A stretch of 64,000 nt of DNA from Cephalotus follicularis (Eukaryota > Streptophyta > Magnoliopsida > Oxalidales > Cephalotaceae), in contig BDDD01002250.1 in NCBI GenBank assembly GCA_001972305.1, forward strand, positions 124,001-188,000, written 5' to 3'. The notes under the pieces were generated by a model. The model was given only the letters and a program-made list of their open reading frames with translations, had not been told where the DNA came from and did no database searches. This document shows, in pieces, positions 2,082 through 58,434 of this stretch (position 1 is the first letter of the stretch; every line of letters starts with the position of its first letter). Made by a program: the position numbers and the translations under genes.

Positions 2082-2335
2082 TAAGCGTCGCCGCTTAACT
2101 CTTAGCGTCAATGCTTTCAACCAGAAACTTTACGCGTCAACATCCCATCCCTTTTGTGTCGATGCTATGAGGTAGGAAGCTCAGGCGTCAACGACACACG
2201 TGTCCATTCTCACACACAACGAATCGTGGCATCGACGTTTTCTGTAAGCGTCGACGTTTATCGCGAATCAGGACTCATTGTCCGTATAACAATCCATAGT
2301 GTCGACGCTTCTTTCCTAAGCGTGGACGGTTAAGC
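2082..2335. repeat. Palindrome array, GCGTCGACGC type (LTR A1, first unit)
   Basis: A cluster of GCGTCGACGC-like words and half-sites such as AAGCGTCGCCGCTT, GCATCGACG, AAGCGTCGACGTT, GTCGACGCTT and AAGCGTGGACGG. Paired sites are about 20 bp apart. Confidence 0.75.
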
Positions 2336-3324
2336 GAACCAAAACACGGTTCCTTCAACACGTCTCAAAACCAATCGGACTCAATCATAAAAGACATGCC
2401 ATTCAATCTGCAATCATTGTAAAACGCAATATGCATTACAGGTTAACTATTCATAGCAACCCAAACAGAATCACAGTCACACAATTCACAATCCGCAACC
2501 CAAGCATTTCATTAATAGCAATACAATATTATTGAACTCAAACTTGCATGTATAGCTTCCCCTACCTTTGATTCCAAGTTAGGAATCGCAGTATCACCAG
2601 CACAGTCAAGTCGCAGGTTCAATTGCCGAACCCTTCCCAGAAACCGTTGAACCGAACCCGGTTCTCACCAATTGATCAGTTCCTCACTGCCAAATCCAAT
2701 TGCCGCTTGCACACTGCACATACAACACATTTCTGTTAAGTTCGACTCACAAAACATTTCCGTCGCCGAAACGCCGGCCGGATTCCGACCAACACAACCA
2801 GACGATGAAACACCCATCAACGGGTTCCACATTGAATGGTCTACTCAAAACCAGTCAAGACTCATCGGGAATCGACGCCGAACGTCACGCCACAGCCGGC
2901 AGTGAGTTGCGACTCACTGAGTCAACTCGCCGGACCTCCACAGGTCCGATCACCACCCAAAAATGCCACACATTCACCAGTCCTACACAGATACTAGCAC
3001 GGTGGCTAAGTACCAACACTATTCACAATCACGATAACAGTGCAATCACAGCACACACAATACCATTCAAGTAATTTATAGATATAAATACTTGCAACAT
3101 ATATAATTGTCAATATATATAACAATCCTTTTGGAAAACATACTTTTCGATATAACAATGATTTAATAAACCATTTATACACTTACAAATGAAGAACATT
3201 TTAGAAAACAGGTGATAGCTCAATCAACAATTGTATGCAACGCAAACATATGCTCAATAATGCAAACGGGCTCTATTCGCGTCAACATACACCATATAGG
3301 CGTTAATGTTCAACCCAATCACTT

Positions 3325-3580
3325 AAGCTTCGCCGCTTAACTCTTAGCGTCAATGCTTTCAACCAGAAACTTTACGCGTCAACATCCCATCCCTTTGGTG
3401 TCGATGCTCTGAGGTAGGAACCTCAGGCGTCAATGGCACACGTGTCTATTCTCACACACAACGAATCGTGGCATCGACGTTTTCTATAAGCGTCGACGTT
3501 TATCGCGAATCAGGACTCATTGTCCGTATAACAATCCATAGCGTCGACGCTTCTTTCCTAAGCGTCGATGGTTAAGTGAA
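3325..3580. repeat. Palindrome array, GCGTCGACGC type (LTR A1, second unit)
   Basis: This is the duplicated version of the array at 2082-2335, with its own substitutions. The word AGCGTCGACGCTTC at about 3540 keeps a perfect GCGTCGACGC core here, while the first unit has GTGTCGACGC. Confidence 0.75.
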
Positions 3581-4827
3581 GCAAAACACGGTTCCTTCAA
3601 CACGTCTCAAAACCAATAGGACTCAATCATAAAACACGTGCCATTCAATATGCAATCATTGTAAAATGCAATATGCATTACAGGTTAACTATTCATAGAA
3701 ACCCTAACAAAATCACAGTCACACAATTCACAATCCGCAACCCAAGCATTTCATTAATAGCAATACAATATTATTGAACTCAAACTTGCATGTATAGCTT
3801 CCCCTACCTTTGATTCCAAGTTAGGAATCGCAATATCACCAGCACAGTCAAGTCGCAGGTTCAATTGTCGAACCCTTCCCAGAAACCGTTGAACCGAACC
3901 CGGTTCTCGGTAATTGATCAGTTCCTCACTACCAAATCCAATTGCCGCTTGCACACTGCACATACAACACATTTCTGTTACGTTCGACTCACAAAACAAT
4001 TCCGTCGCCGAAACGCCGGCCGGATTCCGACCGACACAACCAGGCGATGAAACACCCATCAACGGGTTCCACATTGAACGGTCTACTCAAAACCGGTCAA
4101 GACTCGCCGGGAATTTGCACCGAACGCCGCGCCACGGCCGACAGTGAGTTGCGACTCACTGAGTCAACTCGTCGGACCTCCACAGGTCCGATCACCACCC
4201 AAAAATGCCACACATTCACCAGTCCTACACATCCATGGCCGTGACTCGCCAAGACTCGGCGCCAAAAGCGCTGTCTCAGGCGGCCGTGAGTCGACTCGCT
4301 GAGTCGACTCAGTCAATTGATTCTGGCCGTTTCCGGCCGAATCACGCCTCACCGATGGTCGAAATGGGTAGAGCTAGTCCTCTAGACCAAAACACACACC
4401 ACCCGCGATGCTAACGGCGCCGGGAAAGAGGCGCGACAGTGGCGGGGAGAAGAGAAGAAAAAGAAGAAAAAGAGGAGGAGGGGGAAGGGCTTACCGGCGA
4501 CAGTGGCGGGCGCGCTATGCGTTCGTGTCTCCCCCTTTCTCTTTTGTTATTTTTGCTTTTCTGGTAAAATACTAAGGTATGGGTCCCGATTTTTCCGCGA
4601 ATCGTGACATAAATTTTCCAAACGACCACCAAAATAATCGCAATAAAAATGCGAACATACGGGCTTTATTGTCGCGCATTAAAAATAGATTTTATTAGCC
4701 GTCTTAGCTAACACGATTACGACTTAAATGCGTAATACCTTTTTATTACTCCGGGCTCTATCGATTTTATCACGACTGTACACGCACCAATTTCATAATA
4801 ATTATTTATGAAATTCGGGGCGTTGCA

Positions 4828-6145
4828 TGGAGTCAGGGGTAACATCTAAGCAAGATGCAAAACGTGCAGATATAAAAGAATGTGATGCTCCAGAATCCAT
4901 CAGTACTCTAGCAGAATAACCATATATATACAGAGTACCTCCAACAACAGAAGTTGACTCTGGAACCTCTGTCTGAGTAAGTACAAAAATTCTACCTTTT
5001 GCGATGCCCTTGCCGGTATCCCTCCACTGTGACGGTCCCGCCGCCGCACCGCTGCTACTCCCCGGTCCAGTAGGCGTTGTAGTAGGACTCTTTGGACAGT
5101 CCTTAACTGAATGACCAGGTGCCCCGCACCTCAAGCACCAACCATTAAATCTCCAGCAATCTTTTTGTTGGTGGCCTGTACAACCACAGTAAAAGCAACC
5201 TCCAGATCTAGCATTACTCCCGTGGCTAAGAGTACCCTGTGAAGCTGTCTGTTGAGACTTGTTCTTCAACGACTTCGTCGGAGAACCCCCATCCTGCCAC
5301 TTTGACGATGCCGGTCGGGACTGTGTAGGACTCTGTTTACTCTCCTTTGCACGAGCTCTCTCAGCTCGGTCCTCGCTGGATATCGTCTCCAACAGTCTTG
5401 CTTTTTGAGCAACCTCCACAAAAGTCCTCAGCTTCATAGCTCTAATCCTCGACCGAAGATCCGGTCGCAAGCCTCTCAGGAATCTCCGAATTTTCGTCTC
5501 CGCATCAGCTACCAGATAAGGTGAATGTCTGGCTAGCTCCATGAATCTTGCCTGATATTCGGCCACAGTCATCTCCCCTTGACGCATCTCCAATAGCTCC
5601 GTCTCTCGTCGCTCTTGCTCAATACGTGGAACATAAGTCTCCAGGAATTCTGTTTGGAATCTGTCCCAAGTGTCGTCCAATCTCTGTGATTCCCATTTTG
5701 CTTTAACCATTTCCCACCAATGAGTGGCCTCACCCCATAGGTGGTACACAACAAACTTCTATTTCTGGGCGTCAGTACAGTCCATCACCTCAAAGATCTT
5801 CTCCAGATCTTGCAACCATCTCTCAATAATCATAGCATCAAGTTCTCCCTTGAAGCTGGGTGGATTCAGCCTCATGAACTTCTCAATATCTCTCCCAAAA
5901 TAGTTACCATCCTCTCTCGGGCAGTGGTCGGGAGCCCTATGTTGCGGTCGAGCTTGCGCGTAGTACTAGCGCATCTCCTCCGTACTAGCCCTGTTAAAGG
6001 CCATATGTTGCTGAAAATAGTCTGCAATCTGAGCCATTGGATCTCTGTCATCTTGGGGAATATTCATCCCTTGCGGAACATTTGCTTCCTCCGGGGCATT
6101 AGCCTTAGCAGCTCTAGCCCTAGATCAAGTTCTCCTTCGGTCCAT
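4828..6145 (-). pseudogene. Element E gag and protease N-terminus
   Basis: The start is taken at the ATG at 6145 (MDRRRT...), 97 bp downstream of the PBS. The same MDRRR start is seen in the gag remnant of element A2. The frame shows a Ty3/gypsy capsid region (WEMVKAKWESQRLDDTWDRF, EYQARFMELARHSP, RRFLRGLRPDLR) and two CCHC zinc knuckles (CFYCGCTGHQQKDC and CLRCGAPGHSVKDC). A short linker leads into the protease with the catalytic MDSGASHSFIS near 4890. Three stops (TGA at codon 7, then two TAG before the capsid region) break the N-terminal part. From about 5750 to 4828 the frame is open for 315 codons. LTR A1 interrupts the protease about 17 codons after DSG. Confidence 0.88.
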
Positions 6146-6253: not shown

Positions 6254-7158
6254 CTCTTGTCACACCCCGTTTAAGCGAAACGACATATAAGCAGTAAAGG
6301 CAATTAACACATAAAATACAGCTCATGTAAAATCCATAAAATTTAAACTTTAACCAGAAGTCAGCTGCGGAAGCATAAATTCCTAAGCTGTAACCCATAA
6401 CGTGCATCCCATACTACACGCTACTCAAATACATGCCCATCATTGTTAATCTCCCACAAACGGAGCGTGATCACAATACAAGTTAAATTCCATCGTAAAT
6501 TAAACCCATAAGTACGGTACATTAAAATTCCTTTAACAACTCAGTTTATTACATAACAGGAGAACAGTAAAACTACTGGCAACTCCCAGCCCCACGCTAC
6601 ACTCCCACTCCTGTCCCTACTTCAGGCAACCGAGCGAGGCAACAGTACAGTGAGTTACCCAGCCATATTCCTGGCCCCTAGGTCAACCCTGCCACTAGCT
6701 GGTGCTGGAAACCTCCGCCATGCAACTAGTGACTCAAGCACAAACACATAGCAATTCTCAGAGCAAACAGTGAATTCAAGTATTAACAGTGCAGTACATT
6801 AGTGATCGTTTAGATCCACAATAGGCAGTTCATTTCAAAATGTTTTGAATCGCATATCATTTGAAATATTCATTTTCAGTAGAAAATATTCTTTGAAACA
6901 GTTCAGTATGTGGGAAATTACTCCCTCAGTATGTTCAAAAATATAATAAGATTCATTTCATATTTTCGTACTCAACATAGCAGTTTTATATGCATTTCTA
7001 AAGTAATAACTTAGAAATCATAAACCAATTTCAAACAGTCAAGAACAGGCAGTAAAACAGTACATATGCGATGCATACAAATGCTCTAATGCATCCTAAG
7101 CGAAAACGGGATCGTTGAGCATCAAACCGTAAAAACTGTCCAAACAGGGCTTTAAAAT

Positions 7159-7350
7159 GTCGGCGTTTATTCCTCAGGCGCCGACGCTTATGTGCCTTAA
7201 GTGTCGTCGTTTAGTCTCTTAGCGTCAGCGCTTTCAGTTTCTAAGCGTCGATATCTACTCCTTCAAACGTCGACGTTTAAATGCATTTCAATATATAATA
7301 CACAGTTAACAGAGCGAAGCATCGACGGTCATTACTTAGGCGTCGACGGT
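7159..7350. repeat. Palindrome array, GCGTCGACGC type (LTR E, distal)
   Basis: Sites include GGCGCCGACGCTT, AGCGTCGAT, AACGTCGACGTTT, GCATCGACGG and GGCGTCGACGG. Spacers are variable and neighbouring sites are about 20-25 bp apart. Confidence 0.7.
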
Positions 7351-9378: not shown

Positions 9379-9973
9379 CACATCGACGCCTTTAAAGCAC
9401 TGGCAGTTACAGGTAGTTATTCAAGAAAGACATCGATCTCATTCTCAAAAGACATCGACGTTTTTAGCATCAAAAGTTACAGGTCGATTTTCAACAAAGA
9501 CATTGATCCCTTTCAGAGAAGACATCGACGTCTTTAGCCCAGAAAGTTACAGGCTATTTTCATTCAAAGGCATCGATCTTTTTCAGTGAAGACATCAACG
9601 GTTTTCATCAAAGACATCGATCCCTTCAGAAAGACATCGATGTGTTTACTGCTTCAAAGTTACAGGTTGTTTCTGAACAAAGACATCGAGTATATCCTAC
9701 GAAGACATCGACTCCAAAGTAAAAGACATCGTTCCCTTTTCAAAGATATCGATGTGTTTCTCATAACTTCTATTTTTCCAGAAAAGACATCAATGTAGTT
9801 TGAAGACATCGATGTGTTACTCATATCTTCAAAGCCTGGCCACAACTCCAGAAAAGACATCGACTCCATTTATAGACATCGACGTCTTCACACAATATTA
9901 CACCCTGAATGCTAGCAACGGCTAGTTAACTGATGAAGACATCGACGCTTATCAAAATACATCGACGTCTTTA
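9379..9973. repeat. Palindrome array, GACATCGATGTC type (LTR G)
   Basis: About 20 sites of the form AAGACATCGA(T/C)GTCTTT and variants. Close neighbours are 20-22 bp apart (for example the GACATCGAT sites around 9430-9460 and 9565-9640). A second short word, AGTTACAGG, separates groups of sites at about 9405, 9475, 9545 and 9657. Confidence 0.85.
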
Positions 9974-10067
9974 CTCCAACGTCTACATAACAGAGTTTAC
10001 AGCAAATCATCAGTTTTTCAATTCAAAATCTCCATGATTTATGCAATGGATGCATGGATTGTTTGGC

Positions 10068-15904: not shown

Positions 15905-16045
15905 AAAAGCGTCGACGCCTTTGGGAAAGCGTCGATGCCTGCACAGCAAAGATGCACACATGAACCATGCACATGCACGTCGACGCCCTTTAGGTAAAAT
16001 GCTATAAGCATCGACACCTGCATGTAAACGTCGACGCTTTGCGTC
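15905..16045. repeat. Palindrome array, GCGTCGACGC type (LTR F, first cluster)
   Basis: AAGCGTCGACGCC, AAGCGTCGATGCC, CACGTCGACGCCC, AGCATCGACACC and AACGTCGACGCTT. The first two sites are 20 bp apart. Confidence 0.8.
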
Positions 16046-16807: not shown

Positions 16808-16962
16808 CGCTCGAAAACGTCGACGCCTTTGGTAAGCGTCGACGCTTTGTACTGTGAACTGTGTTTTATTTACTGAATGAGTTTTAAACGTCGACGCCTA
16901 TGGGAGGAGACATCGACGCCTAGCCACTAGAAAGCATTGTCACTATGGGACAGAACGTCGAC
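16808..16962. repeat. Palindrome array, GCGTCGACGC type (LTR F, second cluster, split by H)
   Basis: AACGTCGACGCC, AAGCGTCGACGCT, AACGTCGACGCC, ACATCGACGCC and AACGTCGAC at the H insertion point. The array continues at 32504-32555 beyond H (TCGACGCTT, GCGTCGACACC, ACGTCGATGCTT). Confidence 0.8.
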
Positions 16963-22386: not shown

Positions 22387-25300
22387 TGTAACACCCCCGA
22401 TTCAGTGGGAGTCATCACGGTTCCTAATCCGAGACTAATCATAACCTATCTTATAACATGGCACATTTTATTCCTTTTTATCAATTTATTAACTTAGCAT
22501 GTATTCATATTTAACTATAAATCAAGGTTCGCCTTCATTCTTATTATCAAGTTATTAACTCATCTTTAAATCAAATTGCGTGATGGTCTAAAACTTAACA
22601 ATTATAATCTAATAATGGTCTAGCAACTTTATTCAAAATATGAAACTTAAACATAAACTGGAAGTTAAAACATAAACCAAAAACTTAAACATAATTCTAA
22701 GTCAAGACTGAAAAACATAATATAGTTCTAATAGAGGTCCTAACATGACCATAAAATAACTAAGCCAAAAATGAGTCCATCCCCTAAGTGTTCCTTATCA
22801 TAGGTGGCATCTCGCTCATCACACATTGCCCGGACGCTATCCCATAGTACCTGCCGCATGGAAACAAAAACGCGGCTGAGCAAACCTCAGTATGGATATA
22901 GAATCATAAAATATAAAACGAAAATTTTTAAGATAGAAAATACCTGAATATCATATACCTAAAGCATAAAATTATTTAACATATTTTCGAAAAGAACGAA
23001 GGTGAGTAGTCATACAATAAATTCAAAACGAATATCTAACTTTCAAAAACGTTATTCAATTTCAAAACTTAACCCAAGTTCAAAACAGTATCCAAATCAA
23101 ACGTTCAATTTACTTTAACGTCAACCAAGTTAAAGGTTTTAAAATAAAAACTTATCCGATTCAATAATCTCATCATAGAGATCCAAACATATCACATAGA
23201 CTTATCCGATTCCAATATCTCATTACCGAGATCCAAAGCGCATACACATATGCGAAGGTGCAAGGGGTTCATGAGGTCCACATGCCAAATAGGAAGACGT
23301 GTACGGCACTACACAATCAATCTCCAAAATTCGAATCCAAAACATATAAAAAAATAGAGTATACCCATACGCCTCTATCACAAAATCGGATCCATAAATC
23401 CACCTCATGGGATTTATTCAACAGAAAGAGAGACACCGTAGTCAAATCACACCGCTACGGAAGTGTCACGTCCCCGTGCCAGGCCTACGAAGTGCCTATG
23501 GTACCTCCATAGGTAGGAAATATCTCTCTGTGTATTCTTATTTCGAAAACATCACTTTATTTCTAAAAAACATTTTAAAAATGTAATCACATTTTCTAAA
23601 CATTTTCTGGACAGAGCAAAATCATTACGTAACATCAACTCATTTATTTTTCAACCATAAAGAGAAGATTGTATCATGACATATCGTAAAACATAACAAA
23701 GTCTATAAAATGAGATCATAGATTAAAACTGATTTTAGTTTGATAAACAGATAGTCAAAGAACGAAAGCATCCGCACTTTAATTATAAAAAGTAAAACGG
23801 GACAGTTTCAATAAAATCGGATAGCCAAATAGCAGAAAATTCGTGCATTATTCATAAAGTAAAACTATATTTTTACCATAATAAAAACAATAGAAGGGTG
23901 TCAAAGAAACGAAGATCCGTACCTTAAACGATCACAAAAATAACTTTACGAATTGATCAACAATTAAAAGTCCCTCGAAACACAACAATCTAAAAGATAC
24001 AATACATTCATACAAGGGTTCAAAATCACTTTCAACCATCAAACAGTAATTTAGCAATGCTTAAAACATGCTCCAATTCATTACAAAACCAAACGGATGA
24101 TAAAACTTGAAACCAGAAAATTTCTGGGCAATTCCAGTCGACTGCATGAGGGTCCAGTCGACTACTCAAAGGTGGCAGTCGACTGTGTGGCATAGGCAGC
24201 TGACTACTCAGCTGGGTATGAATCCAGTCGATTACTCAAAGGGTGACAGTCGACTACTCAAACTGGGTAGCATCCAGTCGGCTGGAACAATGGTCTAGTC
24301 GAATGTTGAAGGCAAACAGTCGGCTGTTCTGGGCGACAGAACAGCAAAAACACAGCAATTCAACTCCAATTTCCGGTTAAAACTCCATTATCACAATACC
24401 AGTTGATTTTAAACACGTATATAGGTCTTATGTGACTTAACCGTGGCATTTAAAGTCAAGAAATCATACAAGGGTGATCTTACTTTTAAAGGAAGCAAAA
24501 TTCTATTTCCTAGCATGCTTAACTACTAATCAATTTCCTGTTAAACACTAACTAACAAGTTTAAAACTTGTTTACCGCCATTATTAGACTTTCCAGGACT
24601 TACTAACGATCTCATAACAGTAACAAATCATACATAGCAAGAAATCAAACTAAGACCCACTAGCAACCACATAAACATGCATTGGATATCATTAAACTAA
24701 TTCTAATTCTTAAGCCACAATAACAGAGGAAGACCAACCTGGTATGATGATCAAAGGAGAACAAGACGAATATAATTCTTGCAGGTACGGTTCCCAGGAA
24801 CAATGACACATAATAGAGGCATGCAATGACTAATGGCATATATATATATCACTTAGAAAAGGCAAATTAGGTCATGCTAAGTCAAAAAGGAAGTCAAAAT
24901 CTGTTATAATAAGGAAAAGGAGCAAAATTTCGGGATTGTGGGTGAGAATTGAGGGAAAGAAATCAGTTTTTGTGAGGGAGAAGGAAGAAAAACGGGAATG
25001 GAGGGAGAAAAATAGAAAGAAAGTCTTTTATTTGCCAAAATACAATATTTATTCCCATTTTTAAAATCCTTTTGTATTAAAAACCAATTTTGATCATTTA
25101 AAAATACCAACAACAATTATTACTCATTTATAATTACATTTTATCAATTATCCAAAGGCAATATAATTGGTTTTTATAAAGCCCAAAATAAAAGGATTTG
25201 TTTTCCAATTAAAACAATTTCACCACGTTAATAATAAAAACCAATTTAATATTTATACGAAATATAATTCAATTAATTTTACCTATTCATGTACATAGTC

Positions 25301-25458
25301 CGATCAATATTCACTAGCCTAAATTTAACGTCTTTAAGCATAAAAGCCCGAATTATTATTCACCAACCATATAACAAAATAAAATTTCACAATATGCACA
25401 CCGACATAAAATCAAGCAATAATCCAAAAATAGGCACACGAACAAACGGGGTATTACA
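22387..25458 (-). repeat. 5' LTR of element C
   Basis: On its own strand it starts TGTAATACCCCG (25458) and ends GGGGGTGTTACA (22387), 3072 bp. A palindrome array lies at 24133-24325. The same family appears as solo LTR H and as the fragment 54601-56349. Confidence 0.92.
24133..24325. repeat. Palindrome array, CAGTCGACTG type (LTR C 5')
   Basis: Nine sites with steps 20, 21, 21, 28, 22, 28, 21 and 21 bp. The sites decay from CAGTCGACTG to variants such as CAGCTGACTA, CAGTCGATTA, CAGTCGGCTG and TAGTCGAATG. Confidence 0.88.
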
Positions 25459-27874: not shown

Positions 27875-30658
27875 TGTAATAACCGCAAATTCAATTCGTG
27901 TACATTGTAATAATGATTAATAAAATGTGCACTCATTTGAATTTAATGTCCAATTATTATAATTTGTGATTGGTAATTACTTGGGATGAATGGAGATGCA
28001 ATTCGGTGAAAATCAAACTTAAGAAACCCTAAAACAGCCATTGACAGCCGACTGCCACAGGGGGGGAAGTCGACTGCCTGGTTTATAAAGGTACAGCCGA
28101 CTATCACAGGGGAGCAGTCGACTGCCAGATTCGTGTTGTGGGCAGTCGACTGCCAGTTGAAGACAGCCGAATGGATCGGTACATAATAGGTGTCTGTGCA
28201 TGCCTGTTAAACTGAACCAAGAGGAGATTGCATGGTGGGCAGGTGTCACATGAGACAGGAGCTGCCAGAGCATGCAAAAAGGCATGCTTGCATGTCCTCT
28301 ATTCCCTCTACAACTTGCAGGCTTGTAACCTGTAAGAATCAAAAGAGAGAAAGGTGAGAAGAAAGAGGTGCATGTGAGAGAGAGAGGAATGAGAGGAGCT
28401 GAGTTAAAGAACTCTGGAAAATTCAAGGCTTATATCAACTGTTGAATTGTGATATGAGTGTTAGAAACACTGAATATTGAGGAGAGTTGCTGGAAATTAT
28501 TGAAAGCTTGCATTGGGGAGATAGGAGAGCTCAAGGAAAGAGGATTCGAGCTTTGGACTCTTGGTAAGTTTCTAAATTCGAACTTACTATTATTGCAATG
28601 ATAGTGTAAACTAGGAGGATGTTCACTATCTTCTGTTAATGTTTAAAGTTAACAATATTTAAATGGAATTAGAATTGATATTGAAAAGGAGTAGGAAATA
28701 TGGAGATGGAGCTTAGAGAATTGTTACTAGGCCTATGGTTCGATTAGGGTTGCTGTTATAATTGTCTCTAAGCATGTGTATACTGGCTAAACACATATAC
28801 ACTTCTATAACATGAAACATGATGGTTACTAGAAGTAGAAGTGAATAATAGGAACGTATTGATAATGGAAGTTTAAGACTTAAGGAACTAGTTATAAGCT
28901 ACTGTTGAAGTAGTATTGCATATGGATAACTAGTTAATCTCCTGGTTAATGACTGAACCTTAATGCATGTACTGTATAGAGTAATCTTGCTGGAATTAAA
29001 AGATTGTTGGAGGACTTTGGAAACTCAAAGAGATAGATCATTCCAATTGATCTTGGGATAGTGATTTAAGGTAGGGGTAACGATATGTTATGGAAGATAT
29101 GAGTATGCATATCATGTATGTTTAGTTCCTGCATGATTACATGTGTTGAAATTGGTTGGAAATTGAACTTGAATTGCATGAACTGCTACTGCCTGTATTT
29201 TCTGGGCAGAAGCAGTCGACTGTTCTTCATGACAGTCGACTACTCAACCCTATCCAGTCGACTGCCAAGGCAAAGCAGTCGACTACTCAACCAAGGCAGC
29301 CGGCTACTCTTGAAGGCAGCCAACTGTCCTGGATAAAATTGGCTAATATAGGTCTGTTTGGACCTCAATTTTGAATGTAATTCAACTTGGCCTCCATTTG
29401 GATGACTACAACAGTTAACCCTGGCCTCATATACAATTACATTCCAAAAGTAAACAATGTACGCACTCCTTGTGAGTGTTGCATATGAATTGACTATGTA
29501 ATGCTATTCTTTGTGAATCCTTGCATTGATACTGATTTGTGTTATTGCTACTAAATATGCCACTGTCATATTAGTATATACTGTTTTGGTGTCATTTAAC
29601 ACCACTACCACTTGTATTTCGATAATTGGAACCAACTATGGGCTATGTACCCAAATTATGATATCAACTATCATTTTCAAATGGATGATTATTGCCAAAT
29701 GAACTACTGATTTTTCGTCCTATATGAGAGGTAGCTACTATTTTGTTTCCAAATTGGAAATCACTACTGTACTGATATCGTTTTCCTCATATGAGATGTA
29801 CGATCACTGAAATGTTATATGTTTCTAAAGAAACATCTTTTATATTGCATACTATTGGTATATGTAATATTACTATTGAACTGCTTGAATTATTTGTCTA
29901 TGCTTACTGCCGTAGTTTAGTGATGGAGGATATCACTGACTACGGATGTGATTCTGGGTGCCAGGAGTTGGCCAGAGTATCACCCAAACATATCTGCATT
30001 GCAGATCTTATTTGTTAAACTACCCGCCAACGCCGGTAGTAAATGTTACCTGCCTGTCATCTTCGGAGCGAAGGTGATAGTTAGGTGGTGCACAGTTGGT
30101 GCTAGGAGTTAGCGACAGGTGACACCCAACCACTGTATGAATTGATTGTACCCTTGTGCGGTATTCTTGCATATGCATTGTTTATGGCCACTTGGCATGA
30201 TTGCTTATATATTGGCTCATTAAATGTTATTTTGATATAAACTGTCATACATGTTGCATTCATATATTCCTTATCATGCATTATCTTCCTACTTAGCCAA
30301 GTGAGGACAACGGCTAACGCCTACAATTTCAGATTAAGCGAAGATGTTGGAGTTGCTGCTGAAGCTTGGAGAGCTTCTTATATTTGATTTAAGGTTGTTA
30401 TTTTTGTGATGTTGTACTATTTTGTATTGAACGGTTCATACCTCGTTAATGTTGTACTTCCGCTTGTAAGGATAATTTATTTGAATTGTAACCGCACGTA
30501 GTATAGGATGCGTGCAGATGACTTAAGTTATATTTTGGCTTATTGAATGCTTCCGCATATTATTTTATGATTTGTTAAATGAATGCTGGAATATATTCAA
30601 TTACTGATATCACCACATATGCTTGTCTTAACGTAAACCAAAATAACGGGGTGTGACA
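27875..30658 (+). repeat. 3' LTR of element D
   Basis: A complete 2784-bp LTR, TGTAATAACC to GGGGTGTGACA. It carries palindrome arrays at 28045-28178 and 29210-29328. The GAGGACAACGGCTAACGCC box (30303) and the GCTTCCGCA box (30549) lie close to its end, as in the LTRs of A, E and F. Confidence 0.92.
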
Positions 30659-30837: not shown

Positions 30838-31045
30838 AGTCGGCTACCCATATGAACAGTCGGCTGTTTAGTATGAGTAGTCGACTGTCTTGTGTAACAG
30901 TCGAATGTTTTGTATTGAGTAGTCGACTGGAACCCTGTCACTGTCGACTGCCTGTAGTCCAGGTTATGTAGTCGACCGGCCCTGTTGTGTAGTCGACTGC
31001 CACCCCTTGGACAGTAGATTGGATCCCTGAAACAGTCGGCTGGTT
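30838..31045. repeat. Palindrome array, CAGTCGACTG type (LTR H)
   Basis: About ten sites, many degenerate (CAGTCGGCTG, CAGTCGAATG, TAGTCGACTG, TAGTCGACCG). Steps in the first half are 20, 21, 20 and 22 bp. Confidence 0.85.
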
Positions 31046-39597: not shown

Positions 39598-41058
39598 TGT
39601 TCACTTAAAAAGAATGTTTTAAAAGTTATAGCCGCAAGTACACGGATCATGCAGTAACGGGTCGAACGCAGGGAAACGTTAAACTAGTTGTAATATATCC
39701 AACCTAGGAGAATTATGCAAATTCAAGGTTTAATTATGAAAACAACTCCTAATTATGCAAAATAATTTAAATAATCAAAACAGGAAAGGAAGGCGTCGAT
39801 GATAAAAGACACTGAATTTAAAACACCAAGAAATAAAGTATGCAATTTTAAAACTAATCAAAACAATGAAGAAAAGTGAAGAAAAAATATAATTAAAAAG
39901 CGGTTTTAGGGTATAGAAACTCACCATAGATTGTATTGAAAAATTCCATTTAATTGAACGATCATACCTTGATAACCAGTGGCAGCTAGGTCTATACGGA
40001 GTGCGACGATGATGACAAGACATATGAGTAGTCATGCTAGGTCTATACGAAGTATGAAAACGGCGGCAAGACGTATGAGTAGACATGCTAAGTCCATACG
40101 AAGTGTGTTCGTTGTGACAAACCGTATGAGTAGACTCCATTGATTGAATTAAGCACCATTTATTCACCAATTTCATATTCACCGACAAGATGTTTGTGGA
40201 TTTTAATCATACAGACAAAGTGTGTGTGAAGGCAGAAAAATTGAAGAACAAATCAACTATTCAAGGATTCTTATTGATGGAATTGAAACAATAACACTCT
40301 AGGCTTTGTTCTAACCCAAAAACCTTAATGAGTTTAGCTACTAAACATTGTAAAATAAAATTGATAAAGAAGAAAATAGGGTTTCTACCAGCCTCAACAC
40401 ACTGAATTTGGCCAGCCTTGCATTGTTTTTATACTACAAAACTGATCAAAAACATAAATAAATCAATCTTAGTTACAAAATCTGGCAAAAAATCTAACTT
40501 TCTATTTCTGCTGCAGAAGAAGACGTCGACGCCTTTGGTTGAAGGTCGACGCGTTTGCAAAGAATCACGTTTTGCTGAGATGAAAGACTTCGATGTTTTG
40601 GAGAACACATCGATGCATTTTGGTCCAAAATCTACAAGTCAAATTTGCACAAAGACATCGATGCGATTAGTGAAAGACATCGATGTCTTTCTCATAGCAT
40701 TTGAAGGTAGGCTGCAATCCCAGAAAGGACATCGATCCGCAACAAAAGACGTCAATTTGTTTCCCACAAACCCAGAAAAGGCATCGATCCTCATGAAAGA
40801 CATTGATGCATTTAACTCTGTTTCTGCAGAATTTGTCAATTCTTTAATCTTTAATCTTTCAAACTCCAATTTGCACAAGTTTGGGTAGTATTCATGCACT
40901 TTAACCCTTTCGCTCTTGTACCTGAAAATGAACATAACACAACCAAAGTAGTCTATTCCAAGCATAAAAATATCACAAATAAATCATTAAAAAAAACACA
41001 TTTTTATGGTAAACACAAACTAATGCCCAACTCACTTTATAATGCAAATAGCCATACA
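39598..41058 (-). repeat. 5' LTR of element I
   Basis: The LTR ends at 39598 on its own strand (…GAACA) next to the PBS. Its start is placed at TGTATGGC (41058), because family B LTR sequence begins just beyond; this edge could be off by up to about 10 bp. The length of about 1.46 kb fits Athila. It carries a mixed palindrome array (40518-40812). The stretch 39598-40500 holds no coding similarity. Confidence 0.75.
40518..40812. repeat. Palindrome array, mixed GTCGAC and ATCGAT types (LTR I)
   Basis: It starts with GACGTCGACGCC and GGTCGACGCG (20 bp apart) and continues with ATCGAT-type sites: ACATCGATGCAT, GACATCGATGCG, GACATCGATGTC (22 bp apart), ACATCGATCC, GCATCGATCC and ACATTGATGC. This Athila LTR therefore shares the word used by the copia-like LTR G. 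Confidence 0.85.
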
Positions 41059-41318: not shown

Positions 41319-44300
41319 TGTCACACCCCGTTCCCATAACAACATATATAGTGGTGGCAATCAACATATAATCCCGACTTATGCAAATTACCATAAATTT
41401 AAAACTTTCCATAACCATTAACATCTTGCGGAAGCATTTAAATATAAGCCGAATTATAACGTAACATGCATCCCATACTACATGCTACAACAATAAACAT
41501 CATCAAAGTTAACTGCCCACAAACGGAGCGTGAACAATATACATCAATACATCGATTCATTTATTACAATGATCCATTAACATTTCTCAAAAGTAAAACA
41601 ACATGAAACTCCATTCGCTCCACGGAGCTCAACAGTAACAATCCGCTGCATCAACCTGAAATCAATCTGAAACTGTAGGGGGTTAGCCTTTGTCCTCACT
41701 CGGCTAAGTATAAATACAGTTCAGTTTCAATGATAATGCATGTCATGTATGAATGCACAGTGATGTAGTACAGTATATATAACAGTATATACATAAATGT
41801 ATCTATATATGCATATACCCAGTACAGGTGCAACCCGTTAGGGCTACATCAACACAATCACGGTCATGTCCTCAGCGGACCAATCACAATCATGTTCTCA
41901 AAGGACCAGACAATCCATCAGTTATGCCTCAACGGGCCAACAATCCAGTCCGAGTCCGATATCTACCACCCGAAGGTTGGTAGTATCACATATCGATGCT
42001 AACCGGCACGTAGGCGGGGAAAGCTCGATCAAACAATCAATCAAACACATCCAAAGGACCGACCAATACGAAGCGACGCTAACCATCCCGGACCAGAAAA
42101 GCTCGTGGCTTTCTGGCCCCAAGCTGGGAAAGCTCGCCCCATGTCGATACTAACCGTCCAGGGCTAGGAAAGCTCACAGGCTAACCGGCACTTGGGTAGG
42201 AATAGCTTGACCATCAGTCAATGATGCTAACCGGCCCCGAGCTAGGAAAGCGCACAGCTAACCGTCTCGTGGTGCTAGGAAAGCTCAACAATCCGAAGAT
42301 GCTAACCAGCCCCGAGCTAGGAAAGCGCGTAGCTAACCGTCCCGTGGTGCTAGGAAAGCTCACAATCAATCAATAACATCCACGTTACTAGCACGGCGGC
42401 TAAGTAACAACAATCAATACACGGTAAACGATACTAGCACGGTGGCTAAGTACCAACCAAGTTATTAGCACGGTGGCTAATAATCAGCAAGTTATTAGCA
42501 CGGTGGCTAATAATCAGCAAGCACAAGCATTTCACAGCACAAGTCAAGCAATTACATATAATTACTTGATCAAATATATTTGTTTAAAATATATTATTCC
42601 GTTCACAAGTTGTAATAAGTTACAAAACTTAAAACAATACATTTCTCGTCTTTGGAAATACTTCCCCAAACATTTTGAAAACATATATATTCATATGTTG
42701 ACAAATATACATTTTCACACAATACATTTGGTTTCATAATCAAACCTTTAAAACATTTCTCTGTCATTGGAAATACTTCCCCAAACACTTCAAGTAATTT
42801 ATAGATATAAATAATTGCAACATATATATTTGTCAATATATATAACAACCCTTTTGGAAAACATACTTTTCCATATAACAATGATTTAATAAACCATTTA
42901 TACACTTCTAAAATGAAGAACATTCTAGAAATCAAGTGATAGCTCAATCAACAAGTGTATACAACACAAACATATGCTCAATAATGCAAACGGGCTCTAT
43001 TCGCGTCATCATGCACCATATAGGGGTTAACATTCAACCCAGTCACTTAAGCGTCGCCGCTTAACTCTTGGCGTCAATGCTTTCAACCAAAAACTCTACG
43101 CGTCAACATCCCATCCCTTTGGCGTCGATGCTCTGAGGTAGGAACCTCAGGCGTCAAAGGCACACATGTCCATTCTCACACACAACGAATCGTGGCGTCG
43201 ACATTTTCTGTAAGCGTCGACGTTTATCACGAATCAGGACTCGTTGTCCGTATAACAATCCATATCGTCGACGCTTCTTTCCTAAGCGTCGACGGTTAAG
43301 CGAACCAAAACATGGTTCCCTCAACACGCGTCAAAACCAATAGAGTTCAAGAACACAACATACGTCATTCAATTCGCAATCATCACAAAACACAATATAC
43401 AGGACAGGTTAACTATTCATAGCAATCCTAACACAGTCACACAATTCACAATCCGCAAACCATGCATTTCATCAATGGCATTACAATATTATTGAACTCA
43501 AACTTGCATGTATAGCTTCCCCTACCTGTTACAGCAGCACAGTCGGGCCGCAGGTTCAATTGCCGAACCTTTTCGATAGTTGTTGAACCGAAGCCGGTTC
43601 TCGCCAATTGATCAGTTCCTCGCTGCCAAATCCAATCGCCGCTTACACACTGCACATACAACACATTTCTGTTACGTTCGACACAAAAAACATTTCCGTC
43701 ACCGAAACGCCGACCGAGTTCCGACCGACAAAACCAGGCGACGAAACACCCATCAACGGGTTCCACATTGAACGGTGTACACAGAACCGGTCAAGACTCA
43801 CCGGGAATCAGCGCCGAACGACGCGCCACAGCCGGCAGTGTGTTGCGACTCACTAAGTCAACTCGTCGGACCTCCACAAGTCCGATCACCACCCAAAAAC
43901 GCCACACATTCACCAGTCCTACACATCCATGGCCGTGACTCACCAAGACTCGGCGCCAAATGCCGTGTCTCAGGCGACAGTGAGTCGACTCACTGAGTCG
44001 ACTCATTCAACTGATTCCGGCCGTTTCAGGCCGAATCACGCCTCACCAGTGGTCGAAATGGGTAGAGCTAGTCCTCTACACCAAAACCCAGGCCACCCGC
44101 GACGCTAACGACGTCGGGAAACGCTGGGAGGAGACGCGCACAATGACGATCGGCGAGAAGAAAAAAGAAGAAAAAGAGAAGAAGGGGGAGGAGGTTACCA
44201 ACGATTGGAGGCCCTGGGTTGACCGGCGTGCTCTCCCGGTCCGGTAGCTGGCTCCGGCGTCCTCTCCCGTTCTCTCCGCCGATCTCTCTCCCACACTCTC

Positions 44301-47484: not shown

Positions 47485-47488
47485 CTGT

Positions 47489-54039: not shown

Positions 54040-54575
54040 TGTTGGCCTTTGCCACCACGTTTAATTGTATTTACATATGTTATTTTGATGATTAACAAAC
54101 ATAGATTACTTGTATGCATGATTCTTCAAGTTATAACTTCACATACTCACTTGATCTTATGTCCAAAGTTAGTCAGCCGACAACTCCGATTTATTCTTCA
54201 ATGTCTTGGATGACATACTAAAACGTGTTAACTACCGTCAGCCGACCTAAGGGACCGTCAGCTGACCTGGGGGACCGTCAGCTGACCAGGGGACGAAGTC
54301 AGCCGACCTAACCCACATTTTACAATGTCTTCGAAGACGGACTTAAACATGGGTACCGTCAGCTGACTACGGGACACTGTCAGCTGACCTAAACGGACCG
54401 TCAGCTGACCTGGGGACACCGTCAGCTGACCTAACAACAAGGACGTCTAAGACCCAAAACCAACTTCTACGTCAGCTGATGTAATGAAACCTTCAGTTGA
54501 GGATTGGAACCGTCAGCTGACCTAAAGAGAGGTAAGCCGACCTTAACGGACATAGACGTATTTGTAAGAACCGTG
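54040..54575 (+). repeat. LTR fragment K1, Sirevirus-like copia
   Basis: It starts TGTTGGCCTTTGCC and contains TTTTGATGATTAACAAAC, a usual early motif of Sirevirus-type LTRs. Bases 54043-54170 equal 57846-57973 with a single mismatch. A GTCAGCTGAC array follows, up to the assembly gap. Confidence 0.7.
54171..54545. repeat. Palindrome array, GTCAGCTGAC type (LTR K1)
   Basis: About a dozen sites GTCAGCTGAC or GTCAGCCGAC. Measured steps are 20, 20 and 21 bp near 54238-54300 and 21, 21 and 21 bp near 54358-54431. Spacers are mostly 'CTNNGGGACC'-like. Confidence 0.9.
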
Positions 54576-54600
54576 NNNNNNNNNNNNNNNNNNNNNNNNN
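54576..54600. other. Assembly gap (25 N)
   Basis: A run of 25 N. The sequence changes from a plus-strand Sirevirus-like LTR to a minus-strand C-family LTR across it, so the true distance and order are unknown. Confidence 0.99.
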
Positions 54601-56349
54601 ATACTTGTTGCATGCCTTAATAAGAAAGAAACCACGAGGATAAAAAAATATAAAACTAATATTTTTACTCTAATAAAATCAATAGGAGCACCAAAGAAAG
54701 AAAAATCCGTACGTTATTCATAAAAAGAGAAACGGGACAGTTTTAATGAAACCAGATAGCAAAAGGGCAGAAAATCCGTACGTTATTTATAAAAATAAAA
54801 AACTGAATTTATTCAGATAAAACCGAAGGAGATATCGAAGAACGAAAAATACGTACGTTATTCAGAAAATAAAACTATATATTTTTATTTACTACAGTAA
54901 AACAGATAGGAGGGTATCAAAGAAGGAAAAATCCGTACAAAACATATTTTAATTTATTTTAGTGAAAACCAAGAATGAAGAGTTCGTACTTTATTCTTAA
55001 AGTAAAACTATCATGAGTAAAACTATCTTTTTTTTTTATCATAATAAAACAAATAGGAGGGTATCAAGGAACGAAAAATCCGTACCTCATGCGATCACCA
55101 AAATAACTTTACGAATCGATCAACAATTTAAAAGTTCCTCGGAGCACAAAAATCTAAAAGATACAATACCATTCATACAAGGGTTCAAAAATCACTTTCA
55201 AACATCAAACAACAATTCAACGATGTTCAAAACATGTTCCAATTCATTCGACAAACAAACGGTAAAACATAAAACCAGAAAATTTCTGGGCAATACCAGT
55301 CGACTGTAACAGGGTCCAGTCGGCTACTCAAAGGGTGGCAGTCGACTGTGTGGCATAGGCAGTCGACTACTTCAACTAAGTGTCGACTACTTTAACTAAG
55401 TATGAATCCAGTCGGCTGGAACAGGGGTCCAGTCGACTGTTGAAGGCAAAACAGTCGGCTGCTTTGGCAGGCAGTCGACTGTTCTGGGCGACAGGACAGC
55501 AAGAACAATGCAATTCAATTCCAATTTATGTTAAAACTCTTGTTACAACACTACCAGATGATCTCGAATACTTATATAGGTCCTATGTGACTTATTGGTT
55601 GCATTTAAACACCAAGAATCAAAAGGTTCATGCTTTTGGTGATCATACTTATAGGGAGAAGCAAGTTTCAATGTTTATATGCATAATTCCTTTACTAATT
55701 TTCTGTCAAACACCATTTAACATATTCAAACCTTTTTGTATCATTAGGAGACACCTCCTAACTTCCTAACAATTTCAGAAAATCAATACAACATGCATGG
55801 CAGGGAGCAAATAAAACCAACATACACTAACCTTCATGAACATGCAATTTTGATGATATAAAACAAATTCACTATTATGCCACATTCACAAAGGAAAAAC
55901 CAACCTGATGTGATGAATCAAAGAAGACAATAACAGGTTCTCTTCTTGCAAATTCGGCTACCAAGAGAGAGACGAACATTTAAAAATACCAACAACAATT
56001 ATTATTTATTTATAATTACATTTTATCAATTATCCAAAGGCAATATAATTGGTATAATAAAACCCGAAATAAAAGGATTTGTTTTCCGATTAAAACAATT
56101 TCACTACGTTAATAATAAAAATCAAATTAATATTTATAGGAAATATATTCAATTAATTTTTCTATTCACGTACATAGTCCAACCGTATAATATCAAAACA
56201 ATAAATCATATTCTAATAAATATGAAAAACCCTAAGTTTAAATTCACATAACCCAAAGCACACCTTTTGCCAAAACAAAATATGGCAACACAACCAATAA
56301 ATCATAATTAAAAATCCAAAATATGCACGTGAACGAACGGGGTATTACA
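54601..56349 (-). repeat. LTR fragment C2 (C family)
   Basis: It matches the 5'-proximal part of LTR C (about 23800-25458), with the end GGGGTATTACA at 56349, i.e. a TGTAATACCCCG start on the minus strand. The left part is cut by the gap. It is inserted in the reading frame that continues at 56350. Palindrome array at 55296-55490. Confidence 0.85.
55296..55490. repeat. Palindrome array, CAGTCGACTG type (LTR C2)
   Basis: CAGTCGACTG, CAGTCGGCTA, CAGTCGACTG, CAGTCGACTA, a partial GTGTCGACTA duplicate, CAGTCGGCTG, CAGTCGACTG, CAGTCGGCTG and CAGTCGACTG. Steps are about 20-22 bp except around the small duplication at about 55380. Confidence 0.85.
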
Positions 56350-57261
56350 ATATACCCTAGGCTAGTGAAAATGTTTTATGCCAATTTAGCATCCTCCACC
56401 ACTTGCATTGCCAATTCATTTGTTTTAGGAACTCCTATCTGTATAACTCCCGATTTAATTGCCGAAACATTAGGAATTCCAAATGAAGGCATTACTAATT
56501 TTCATGATATTGGTAGAACGTAGGCCCTAGGAATTTGTCTAGAACAACCTAATGTCAATCCACTTTTGAATGTGGCTAGTGGTCATTTGCCAATTGCCTC
56601 TAGGATCATTCTACTTCTTGTTACCAACACTTTTTTTCCAAAAGAAGGATCACACACTCTCCCCTCCGAGCGCGACCTTAAATTCGTCGCTTGTGTTAAG
56701 AACGGAACCCCAATTAACCTTCCCTATCTTATTGTCAACCACCTTTTGTCTAGACCGAATCACACTCCATATCCTATGCTTCTTAGTAGGATCATTTCGA
56801 CTGTCCTTGCTTCATTTAACATAGATATTCTGGATGATGAGCAAAGTATCAAACCTACCCATAAGCAATTAGTGAACAAGGCAGGCCTTAGATTGTGTGG
56901 CATTGTATTTGAGGAAGGAGAATGGGTCAAGATGCAAGGAAGAGGTAGACAGCCAGTAAGAGAGCAAGCGGATGTTAGGGCTGGGGATGATGATGAGGAG
57001 GAGGAGGACGATCCTCAACAGTATGAGGTGCGACCTAGTGCTGGACCGGGCAGCAGCAGCAGCAGTAGACCCACCCTGGACTCACTTCTAGCCAGGATGG
57101 ACCTTGCTCAGGCAGATATTGAGTATCTCAAGGGCCAAATGCACCAGTTGGGTGAAGGACAAACAAATCTTGCTCAGGATCAAGCCGACATCCTTCGAGG
57201 CCAAACCAACATCCTTGAGTTGCTTCAAAACGCCTTTCCTCAGCACCCTCCACCATCTTGA
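56350..57261 (+). pseudogene. 'Putative plant transposon protein'-like ORF with coiled-coil tail
   Basis: One frame, broken by LTR C2 on the left and by a TAG at 56521-56523. The first part (RLVKMFYANLASSTTCIANSFVLGTPICITPDLIAETLGIP) and the second (HLPIASRIILLLVTNTFFPKEGSH, INLPYLIVNHLL, PYPMLLSRIISTVL) resemble the plant transposon-associated family Pfam calls Transposase_32 (from memory, not searched). An acidic Asp/Glu stretch, a serine run and a likely coiled coil (LLARMDLAQADIEYLKGQMHQL...QADILRGQTNILELL) follow to the stop at 57261. It lies upstream of Sirevirus-like polypurine tracts, the place where Sireviruses may carry an extra, env-like ORF. No signal peptide or membrane segment is obvious in what remains. 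Confidence 0.6.
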
Positions 57262-57537
57262 GCTTACATATGCATTATCATGTTTTTCTAAGTGTCTTTT
57301 GGAAACTTTGCTTATGTAATATCTTTAGTTGTTTTTGAAGTGTGAAAGACAATGTGTTGATGTACTTAATATTTTTAAGCTTTTAATGACAATATGCTTT
57401 TGGTTTATGTATGGAATTACAATGTGTATCATATTATTGCTTTAATCTTGTGGTTAATGTGATTGCTTATGCACTTCAAGTTTTTGTATATCTCTTATTG
57501 CATTGAGTTTATTGATAAAATTGTATAGGAATGCATA

Positions 57538-57625
57538 AGTTGAGGGGGGAGCTCTTCAATCCGTGCTATGATTGAGGGGGAGCTTCCGTCTCTCTTTTTG
57601 TTGGTTGACAAAAAGGGGGAGAGAT
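57538..57625 (+). other. Multiple polypurine tracts, Sirevirus-like
   Basis: Three G-rich tracts: TGAGGGGGGAGC (57541), ATTGAGGGGGAGC (57571) and GACAAAAAGGGGGAGAGA (57607-57624). Repeated tracts before the 3' LTR, with the TTGACAAAAAGGGGGAG form, are characteristic of Sireviruses. Confidence 0.75.
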
Positions 57626-57841
57626 ATATTATTTTGCACATTGCATTGAAAGGTTGCATATACATTTTGGGAATATATATGCAAATATTGCATATTGATG
57701 AGATGGCTTGAAATCTTGCATTGAGCAAGTGTATTTTGTTATGACAAATGCATTGGATATGCCTATATTGGTAAATTTGGACTTTGGAACTAAATTGGGT
57801 AAAATTTGTCAATATTTATGCAAAATATGCATGTTTTGTCA

Positions 57842-58434
57842 ATCATGGCCTTTGCCACCCCGTTTAATTGTATTTACATATGTTATTTTGATGATTAACA
57901 AACATAGATTACTTGTATGCATGATTCTTCAAGTTATAACTTCACATACTCACTTGATCTTATGTCCAAAGTTGTGCCAAGAATGTTTATGCAGATACAG
58001 GCAATTCCAGCCGACTGGAGAGAAATCCAGTCGACTGCCAACGTTAGGAGTCGACTTCCAAAGTTATGTAGTCGACTGCATCTTCAACCAAAACCCAGAA
58101 TCTGTAGGAACAACAATCCAGTCAACTGCCACAGGGGTCCAGTCGACTGCCAGGCAAATCCAGTCGACTGTCACAGGGCATCAGTCGACTGCCATGGGTA
58201 CAAATTCAGGCAGAAGCTTCTGTAACATTTTACACCCAATCCAGCCGACTGAAGCAGGGGAACAGTCGACTGCCAGGGGGTCCAGTCGACTGCCAGGGAA
58301 TCCAGCCGACTGCTTTCTAAACCCTACACTCTTTACATTTCCGCAATTGTGTGTTTATGTTTATTGAATTATTTTGTGGTATTTTTGCTAGTAATTTTTA
58401 TAAGTCTATTCACCCCTCCTCTAGACTTCCTACA
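57842..58434 (+). repeat. 3' LTR K2, Sirevirus-like copia
   Basis: The end is well supported (ATTCACCCCTCCTCTAGACTTCCTACA, shortened here to its key CACCCCTCCTCTAG at 58411-58424, end 58434). The start is uncertain between 57626 and 57846. I place it near 57842, where the match to K1 begins. The sequence 57626-57841 is AT-rich and noncoding. The CAGTCGACTG array is at 58008-58318. Confidence 0.65.
58008..58318. repeat. Palindrome array, CAGTCGACTG type (LTR K2)
   Basis: Twelve sites in three groups. Measured steps are 20, 20, 21; then 21, 21, 21; then 21, 20, 20 bp. Sites are CAGTCGACTG, CAGCCGACTG, CAGTCAACTG and similar. Confidence 0.92.

Follow-up and report, generated by a model that had tools for sequence, protein, structure and literature searches.

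Arrays of TCGA-centred palindromes, usually stepped by about 21 bp, in several groups of LTRs of Cephalotus follicularis: candidate dimer-binding sites

The window analysed here, a 64,000-nucleotide stretch of the Cephalotus follicularis genome, raises the question of why short palindromes should recur at steps of about 21 bp in the LTRs of its retrotransposons. We consider it somewhat probable that these arrays are cis-acting, dimer-binding DNA sites of LTR retrotransposons, grown by duplication of about 21 bp and kept by selection. The combination of a concrete decamer with a spacing offers a handle for finding a binding factor and for testing whether regulators are shared among families.

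Spacing and core of the palindromes

Palindromes of at least 8 bp, pure A/T left out, were counted in the 51,650 bases remaining after duplicate LTR copies and the stretch K1 (treated below) were masked, with 200 local dinucleotide shuffles as the null. Pairs at a lag of 20-22 bp, not all independent because related diverged arrays were retained (E with G and F; H2 with B; C with J), numbered 16 against 1.65 +/- 1.34 in shuffles (maximum 8), and the same masked window gave 11 against 1.58 at lag 41-43, 10 against 2.73 at 48-52 and 15 against 2.71 at 68-72. Autocorrelation thus bears out the palindrome steps originally reported, and the step series quoted for arrays D and K2 were reproduced. 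The 20-22 bp excess stems from TCGA-centred palindromes: 54 were observed in the masked window against 11.1 expected, two of them are joined in 13 of the 16 pairs at that lag, and the remaining 144 palindromes yield 2 pairs.

Two TCGA-centred decamers recur, CAGTCGACTG and RCRTCGAYGY. Steps of 20-22 bp make up 34 of the 43 in the six CAGTCGACTG arrays; the RCRTCGAYGY arrays are less regular, consisting mostly of doublets 19-22 bp apart with about 40-60 bp between doublets. The proposal that this step places the sites on one face of the DNA is retained only as a partial rule, because eight of the nine steps outside 20-22 bp lie 6-8 bp beyond a multiple of 10.5, about two-thirds of a turn off phase, and the steps accord with a period of 7 as well as with one of 10.5 (R 0.79 versus 0.69). 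A coding origin was rejected, since steps of 20 and 22 would break a reading frame; an array frame tested as protein gave no significant match among 75 candidates. Decamer pairs were absent from viral contigs and occurred in 13 bacterial stretches without sign of relation.

Array-bearing LTRs and a stretch written backwards

Each version of the decamer occurs in one set of Ty3/gypsy, chromovirus-like elements and also in another set, which is unassigned and does not resemble the first. In the first of these sets, CAGTCGACTG occurs in D, E, F and G:

27875..30658, plus strand: D LTR, 3' copy, TGTAATAACC...GTGTGACA (self-alignment, sequence, motif positions)
28045..28173, plus strand: array D1, CAGTCGACTG class, 6 sites, steps 22, 27, 21, 28, 21 (left copy 18079-18207)
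29213..29326, plus strand: array D2, CAGTCGACTG class, steps 20, 22, 21, 21, 20 counting AGCCGGCT (left copy 19250-19363)
22387..25458, minus strand: E LTR, TGTAATACCCCG...GGGGGTGTTACA, then GAAATGGTATCAGAGA (sequence, motif positions)
24135..24326, minus strand: array E, CAGTCGACTG class (partial copy 21837-21936)
30837..31042, plus strand: array F, in diverged E-related sequence, 10 sites, steps 20, 21, 20, 22, 21, 28, 21, 22, 21
55297..55481, minus strand: array G, in an E-related LTR starting near 56349

The left copy of the D LTR begins at 17909 and is apparently interrupted by element E; within its D2 array, steps of 20, 22 and 21 lead to 19313 and one of 41 to 19354, the latter divided into 21 + 20 by the additional site AGCCGGCT at 19335-19342. 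Its domains identify D as a Ty3/gypsy, chromovirus-like element: RVT_1 at 26288-26992 (Pfam, 5.8e-38), with Ty3-G Gag-Pol as second-best solved structure for this RT (1.1e-51), and, just upstream of the 3' LTR, SH3_Tf2-1 (6.6e-24) and a Chromo match below its 25.1-bit cut-off (4.4e-4, 20.6 bits). The view that such arrays occur in Ty3/gypsy, chromovirus-like LTRs and are not solely a matter of Sireviruses is supported. The coding part of element E seems reduced to the beginning of a gag-like frame (21910-22221, no Pfam match); homology of its array flanks to D2 (z 7.5) places it in the chromovirus-like set, and its LTR is followed by GAAATGGTATCAGAGA, presumably a Met-tRNA-type primer site. 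Array G is preceded, some 100 bp upstream, by a TATA-like box, so that this array may be transcribed and not serve as an upstream enhancer.

RCRTCGAYGY, in turn, is found in A, B and H and, as its second set, in C and J:

43195..43295, minus strand: array A, RCRTCGAYGY class, steps 19, 51, 21 (copies 2229-2257, 3471-3550, 49424-49454)
7157..7349, minus strand: B sites, sparse, apparently in an LTR upstream of a minus-strand Ty3-type gag
15909..16037, plus strand: array H, RCRTCGAYGY class; a Ty3-type integrase end lies immediately upstream
16817..16919, plus strand: array H2, RCRTCGAYGY class, steps 19, 52, 22
9380..9988, plus strand: array C, RCRTCGAYGY class, in an insertion of about 1 kb splitting a Ty3-type RT
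40523..40809, plus strand: array J, RCRTCGAYGY class, related to C

Pfam matches to gag, protease and Ty3_capsid at 4802-5758 (A/B) and to SH3_Tf2-1 in the frame 15115-15702 (H) mark these elements as Ty3/gypsy; their coding domains gave no chromodomain match. The insertion bearing array C spans about 9259-10237, and we infer that it is an LTR.

The second set for CAGTCGACTG is K2, whose surroundings require separate description:

58008..58312, plus strand: array K2, CAGTCGACTG class, 12 sites in fours, steps 20,20,21 / 50 / 21,21,21 / 60 / 21,20,20
54171..54575, no strand assigned: K1 "array", 405 bases apparently reversed without complementing, adjoining the N gap
54576..54600, no strand assigned: assembly gap, 25 N
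54601..54660, no strand assigned: possible right-hand backwards fill
56524..57261, plus strand: open frame of the K element, weak PF20167 match (28.3 bits, cut-off 45)

K1 had been counted as an independent array with a palindrome of its own, and it does read as a regular array of GTCAGCTGAC. That palindrome, however, is CAGTCGACTG read backwards: merely reversed, K1 matches K2 over 340 of its 405 bases at 97.9% identity (E 1.6e-168), whereas as written it has no match in the rest of the window and reverse-complemented its best is 23 bp (E 0.89, not significant). Complementing alone gave weaker matches, the best of them 69% over 112 bp at E 9.5e-7, which is what a palindrome array that has been reversed should give. 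The reversed copy, moreover, starts exactly at the N gap and extends the forward K1/K2 repeat in register (57973/57974). To our knowledge, no process acting on DNA inverts the order of bases in a strand without complementing them, and no paper on reversed gap fills appeared among the matches listed. K1 is apparently an artefact of the assembly record, DNA written backwards, and a genuine independent array at this position is scarcely credible. Beyond the gap, 54601-54722 aligns with itself read backwards at 84% over 125 columns, and 54601-54660 reversed weakly matches the E LTR (E 0.008, against 0.10 as written). An assembly record may thus hold sequence that is probably in no cell and that mimics new biology.

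The nature of the K element was pursued through the interval between K1 and K2, where frames of at least 85 aa were listed and two (55380-55769 and 56524-57261) scanned against Pfam, neither with a gag-pol match. The latter frame has homologues in Cephalotus follicularis of up to 94% identity, and the available text of PMC11728184 links PF20167 to Athila ORF1. Of the traits of a Sirevirus, multiple exact AGGGGGAG PPT octamers near the 3' LTR are present, two in number, at 57575 and 57614; the last is followed by AGATATAT, and sequence common to K1 and K2 starts only at about 57846. Another Sirevirus trait, a final PPT placed 10 bp before the 3' LTR with an AT/TG junction, was not found.

How many separate occurrences these arrays represent was judged from spacer alignment (132 comparisons, 60 shuffles each, the best 24 of the 132 being listed). 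By spacer homology the arrays, lying in LTRs or in insertions that resemble LTRs, form about four groups (D2/E/F/G; A/B/H2; C/J; K2), with D1 and H outside them and within LTRs already counted. The original prediction placed arrays in almost every retrotransposon family; several LTR groups do carry them, but eleven independent families is an overcount (its letters I and C2 were not matched to coordinates). Nor does each family have its own palindrome: there are two decamer classes with one TCGA core, K1 being K2 reversed. Similarity of spacers between groups is at most marginal (D2-C reversed, z 4.2; C-H reversed, 3.4; K2 with D1, 4.0, with G reversed, 3.4, with D2 reversed, 3.1), and these scores leave room for shared ancestry of some arrays. 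D1 and H show a common register, with five of five H sites within 2 bp (a 1.2% chance for this single pair alone); no meaning is claimed for it, as many pairs are possible and the flanks are without homology (score 37.5, shuffle maximum 47.5).

Conservation of sites and readings of the arrays

In 33 CAG-class units, anchored on TCGA alone, the columns adjoining the core are A in 32, G in 31, C in 32 and T in 31; information content is 1.5-1.7 bits at the two positions flanking the core to either side, against -0.05 to 0.35 for spacer columns (0.5-0.6 in the three that directly follow the site). Sites also exceeded spacers in identity in all five pairs of diverged relatives with at least 100 aligned columns. 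With sites called in the first-named sequence, the counts were 50/58 (86%) versus 105/169 (62%) for E-F, 52/59 versus 106/152 for F-G, 58/70 versus 106/154 for C-J, 47/57 versus 74/109 for H2-B and 35/39 versus 62/85 for D2-E. Fisher p ranged from 0.0004 to 0.03 for the first four, whichever member called the sites; D2-E was significant one way only (p 0.027 called in D2, 0.32 in E). Closer copies had no better conservation of sites (E-G, p 0.18 and 0.72; K1 reversed against K2, p 0.48), and in the short A-B alignment of 77 columns a site bias was not significant (p 0.38, 0.25). The proposition that the palindrome is conserved and the spacer is not therefore stands within arrays and between diverged relatives, and fails between closer copies.

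Such a pattern fits the dimeric DNA-binding factor that had been proposed. Each two-fold symmetric decamer would bind a protein dimer, a host transcription factor or chromatin factor with a putative effect on transcription; arrays would grow and shrink by duplication of units of about 21 bp, which would account for the usual step; and selection would hold the decamer while spacers drift. As each version occurs in two sets, several families of elements are probably served by a single factor or by two that are related. That unrelated LTR lineages share two versions of one TCGA palindrome code on the same grid of about 21 bp is a bolder proposition, which we rate as unlikely; if true, a common dimeric factor, host-encoded or element-supplied, would switch whole retrotransposon communities on or off. 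A CBF/DREB-like factor, whose site we take to be RYCGAC, would fit CAGYCGACTG, fails at ATCGAT sites and is not claimed.

Neutral minisatellites of about 21-bp units, without function, would suit the 20-22 bp units (67-95% matches) that Tandem Repeats Finder reports in several arrays and the absent site bias between closer copies. We find this quite improbable: the decamer is kept across units whose spacers are near random, groups whose spacers are at most marginally similar have the same core, and diverged relatives keep sites over spacers despite CpG in the sites. Action in RNA, where palindromes might pair as hairpins or between molecules in packaging or dimerisation, or feed small-RNA silencing, accords with the available portions of PMC5311732 and PMC10760457, in which palindrome clusters of maize Sirevirus LTRs are small-RNA hotspots. 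Folding of eight array stretches gave z from -1.4 to -5.5 against shuffles, seven of them below -2, but any palindrome array is expected to fold well. Site variants do not support the hairpins or kissing loops once offered as an alternative. The commonest is T>C, which produces CAGCCGACTG and makes up 12 of the 43 substitutions counted over 49 sites, with examples in five of six arrays; in RNA it would set A against C on pairing with the consensus. Transitions that would break such pairing number 21, against 14 G-U-compatible transitions, ten of these outer C>T, and the G-U-compatible core change A>G is confined to three sites of array F. We regard an RNA-level role as doubtful.

Equally doubtful, in our estimate, is recruitment of an element-encoded or borrowed anti-silencing factor that removes DNA methylation, by analogy with Arabidopsis VANC. 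According to the available text of PMC5735166, the targets of VANC21 are dense arrays of a motif nine bases long, situated in the non-coding parts of VANDAL elements, and these arrays accumulate and evolve as tandem repeats form. In the present arrays, too, a short conserved motif goes together with a tendency to tandem repetition, and the motif version varies between array groups; the VANC21 motifs, however, stand in a single orientation in that text, and ours are palindromic. The model of a Cephalotus homologue of the K open frame (PF20167) was unusable (mean pLDDT 46.8).

Relation to known systems

Tnt1/Tto1-type Ty1/copia LTRs carry repeated stress-response boxes and resemble the present LTRs in having repeated cis elements; their copies are fewer, and they are not known to show a grid of about 21 bp or TCGA palindromes. 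The VANDAL/VANC system shares dense non-coding motif arrays, spread by tandem repetition and a family-specific motif version; it differs in belonging to DNA transposons with a known element-encoded binder and in single-orientation motifs that the available text does not describe as palindromic (PMC5735166).

Closest are the Sireviruses, for which the available text of PMC2829016 gives palindromic repeated motifs upstream of the promoter as an LTR feature, reported as specific to them among the Ty1/copia elements compared and absent from classic Ty1/copia. The likeness extends to many palindrome copies, a constant core with varying outer bases, a nearby TATA box and TCGA-centred consensus motifs in CGGTCGACCG (Vitis) and ACAATCGATTGT (Tnd-1). 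The Sirevirus core, however, is CGG-CCG in 12 of 13 elements, Tnd-1 being the published exception, whereas here it is TCGA throughout; that text mentions no fixed spacing, whereas the usual step here is about 21 bp. The C insertion fits the Sirevirus plan, its palindromic sites lying upstream of a TATA-like CTATATAAAT at 10067, about 80-100 bp after the last of them; its core is ATCGAY and not CGG-CCG. In the texts available we found no description of chromovirus LTRs with palindrome arrays that are centred on TCGA or stepped by about 21 bp, which does not establish their absence from the literature. Unlike the published Sirevirus case, the present arrays lie in Ty3/gypsy chromovirus-like LTRs, and to these their common core would extend a feature published, in the text available, as Sirevirus-specific among the Ty1/copia elements compared.

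Two classes of TCGA-centred decamer

The short palindromes recurring in these LTRs resolve into two classes of two-fold symmetric decamer, CAGTCGACTG and RCRTCGAYGY, located as follows (window positions, forward strand; letters denote retrotransposon families or their arrays).

28045-28173, array D1 in the D LTR, CAGTCGACTG class
29213-29326, array D2 in the D LTR, CAGTCGACTG class
24135-24326, array E, CAGTCGACTG class
30837-31042, array F, CAGTCGACTG class
55297-55481, array G, CAGTCGACTG class
58008-58312, array K2, CAGTCGACTG class
43195-43295, array A, RCRTCGAYGY class
7157-7349, array B, RCRTCGAYGY class
9380-9988, array C, RCRTCGAYGY class
40523-40809, array J, RCRTCGAYGY class
15909-16037, array H, RCRTCGAYGY class
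16817-16919, array H2, RCRTCGAYGY class

The first class comprises 49 sites at two or fewer mismatches, with 34 of 43 start-to-start steps falling in 20-22 bp; sites of the second occur mainly as doublets, 19-22 bp within and about 40-60 bp between doublets. When units were chosen on TCGA alone and columns compared within arrays, the two bases flanking TCGA on each side proved nearly invariant in the CAGTCGACTG class, amid near-random spacers, and the RCRTCGAYGY class displayed weaker conservation reaching out to an AAG...CTT-like frame.

Palindromes of at least 8 bp, other than pure A/T, were counted in the 51,650 bases remaining after duplicate LTR copies and the supposed array K1 (discussed below) were masked, and compared with 200 dinucleotide shuffles within 500-bp blocks. 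Total palindromes rose modestly (198 vs 166 +/- 14). Pairs at 20-22 bp numbered 16 against 1.65 in shuffles (maximum 8), a count in which pairs are partly non-independent, since the diverged relatives E/F/G, H2/B and C/J were all retained; the excess anticipated in the original prediction is thus present, and the steps it quoted for D and K2 were exact on re-measurement. Lags of 41-43, 48-52 and 68-72 bp likewise exceeded shuffles. TCGA-centred palindromes (54 vs 11.1 expected) supplied 13 of the 16 pairs, the remaining 144 palindromes yielding two; the 20-22 bp excess is restricted to the TCGA-centred set.

Arrays H and D1, of different classes, have a common site register (0,20,68,99,119 vs 0,22,49,70,98,119); a search for homology between their flanks found none. 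Repeats of CAGTCGACTG at 21-23 bp steps also occur in bacterial loci L007, L010 and L012 (and L002, L009, L011), among them three contigs from a single Myxococcales MAG; these are presumably unrelated repeats or operators.

Reversed sequence beside an assembly gap

K1 (54171-54575), formerly counted as an array, is K2 reversed. A direct repeat (54043-54170 and 57846-57973, 99% identical) precedes both, K2 continuing from 57974. Beyond it, the 405 bases of K1 gave no match as written and at most a chance-level match when reverse-complemented (E 0.89). Plain reversal without complementing aligned 340 of these bases with 57974-58313 at 97.9% identity, and the reversed string begins directly beside a gap of 25 N (54576-54600). 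Complementing without reversing gave weaker matches (best E 9.5e-7, 69% over 112 bp), which is what an array of palindromes written in reverse would be expected to do. Sequence left of the gap, from 54171, is almost certainly written backwards, and that on the right, to 54660, may be too, the signal of reversal being weaker there. We take the backwards stretch as gap-fill sequence reversed by software; a 25-N gap is typical PBJelly output, and the fault is possibly genome-wide.

Site conservation and putative function

Site and spacer conservation between related arrays (percentages with sites called in the first-named array; p values with sites called in the first- and second-named arrays, respectively)
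E-F: sites 86, spacers 62%; p 0.0004, 0.0022
F-G: sites 88, spacers 70%; p 0.0035, 0.002
C-J: sites 83, spacers 69%; p 0.019, 0.013
H2-B: sites 82, spacers 68%; p 0.032, 0.012
D2-E: sites 90, spacers 73%; p 0.027, 0.32

The claim that palindromes are conserved and spacers are not therefore holds for these diverged relatives, in one direction only for D2-E, and fails for E-G (p 0.18 and 0.72) and for reversed K1 against K2 (p 0.48), where no site-spacer difference was found. Such a lack would be expected with selection on active elements and drift in dead copies. The A-B alignment (77 columns) is too short for this contrast.

A fixed symmetric decamer amid drifting spacers is the expected appearance of dimer-binding site arrays, and such sites are our leading reading of the arrays, one in which we infer every functional step. 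The spacing would be most simply explained by the size of the unit that is duplicated. Sites need not be strictly phased on the helix, because steps of 27-28 and 49-50 bp are offset by roughly two-thirds of a helical turn; the earlier proposal that sites share one DNA face is partly supported. Pairing of the palindromes in RNA, also raised originally, gains no support from the site variants, although the arrays fold stably as RNA. Anti-silencing arrays of the VANC kind are a fair alternative to the dimer-site reading.

Element identity and comparison with known LTR palindromes

When sites were masked and the spacers aligned, E grouped with G, F and D2; B with H2 and A; and C with J. The arrays thus form about four groups, of which two are Ty3/gypsy sets and the others are C/J and K2. 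Marginal between-group scores arose among 132 comparisons (D2-C reversed, z 4.2; K2-D1, 4.0; C-H reversed, 3.4; K2 with G reversed, 3.4, and with D2 reversed, 3.1). The two chromovirus-like sets are firmly Ty3/gypsy and their chromovirus membership is one we infer, because D encodes a Ty3-type RT and an integrase SH3 fold, its chromodomain match falling below threshold, and A/B and H retain pieces of Ty3-type gag or integrase. C is an insertion of ~1 kb interrupting a Ty3-type RT.

The window is plant DNA full of nested LTR retrotransposons, and the array results given here come from it alone. A 1.24 kb tandem duplication (1747-4231, copies 95.8% identical) lies within an A-family LTR, and an A-family LTR pair (41319-50844, 96% identical) encloses a 2.8-kb internal region with 15- to 90-bp tandem repeats (46006-46672) and no frame among those examined, of 150 aa or more; this element is possibly non-autonomous. 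Back-to-back GAGTCGACTC palindromes, 13 bp apart, occur in A-family sequence at 4288-4310, 43982-44004 and 50141-50163. A transposon piece at 61977-62948, matching Transpos_assoc and DUF4216, we take to be CACTA (En/Spm)-type.

The features of the K element do not assign it to one lineage: it has two exact Sirevirus PPT octamers, yet a junction not of Sirevirus type, and its open frame (56524-57261) weakly matches a family tied to Athila (PMC11728184). Of 344 homologues of that frame, the 120 listed, up to 94% identical, all carry the name of Cephalotus follicularis, which makes this species the best candidate for the host.

In the part of the literature examined, we found no description of comparable arrays in chromovirus LTRs, of a TCGA core common to several LTR groups, or of a ~21-bp palindrome grid. 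Palindromic repeated LTR motifs are already established for Sireviruses, and were termed Sirevirus-specific among the Ty1/copia elements compared (PMC2829016). Two of the 13 published Sirevirus motifs are TCGA-centred (PMC2829016), whereas TCGA is the core of the arrays in the window.
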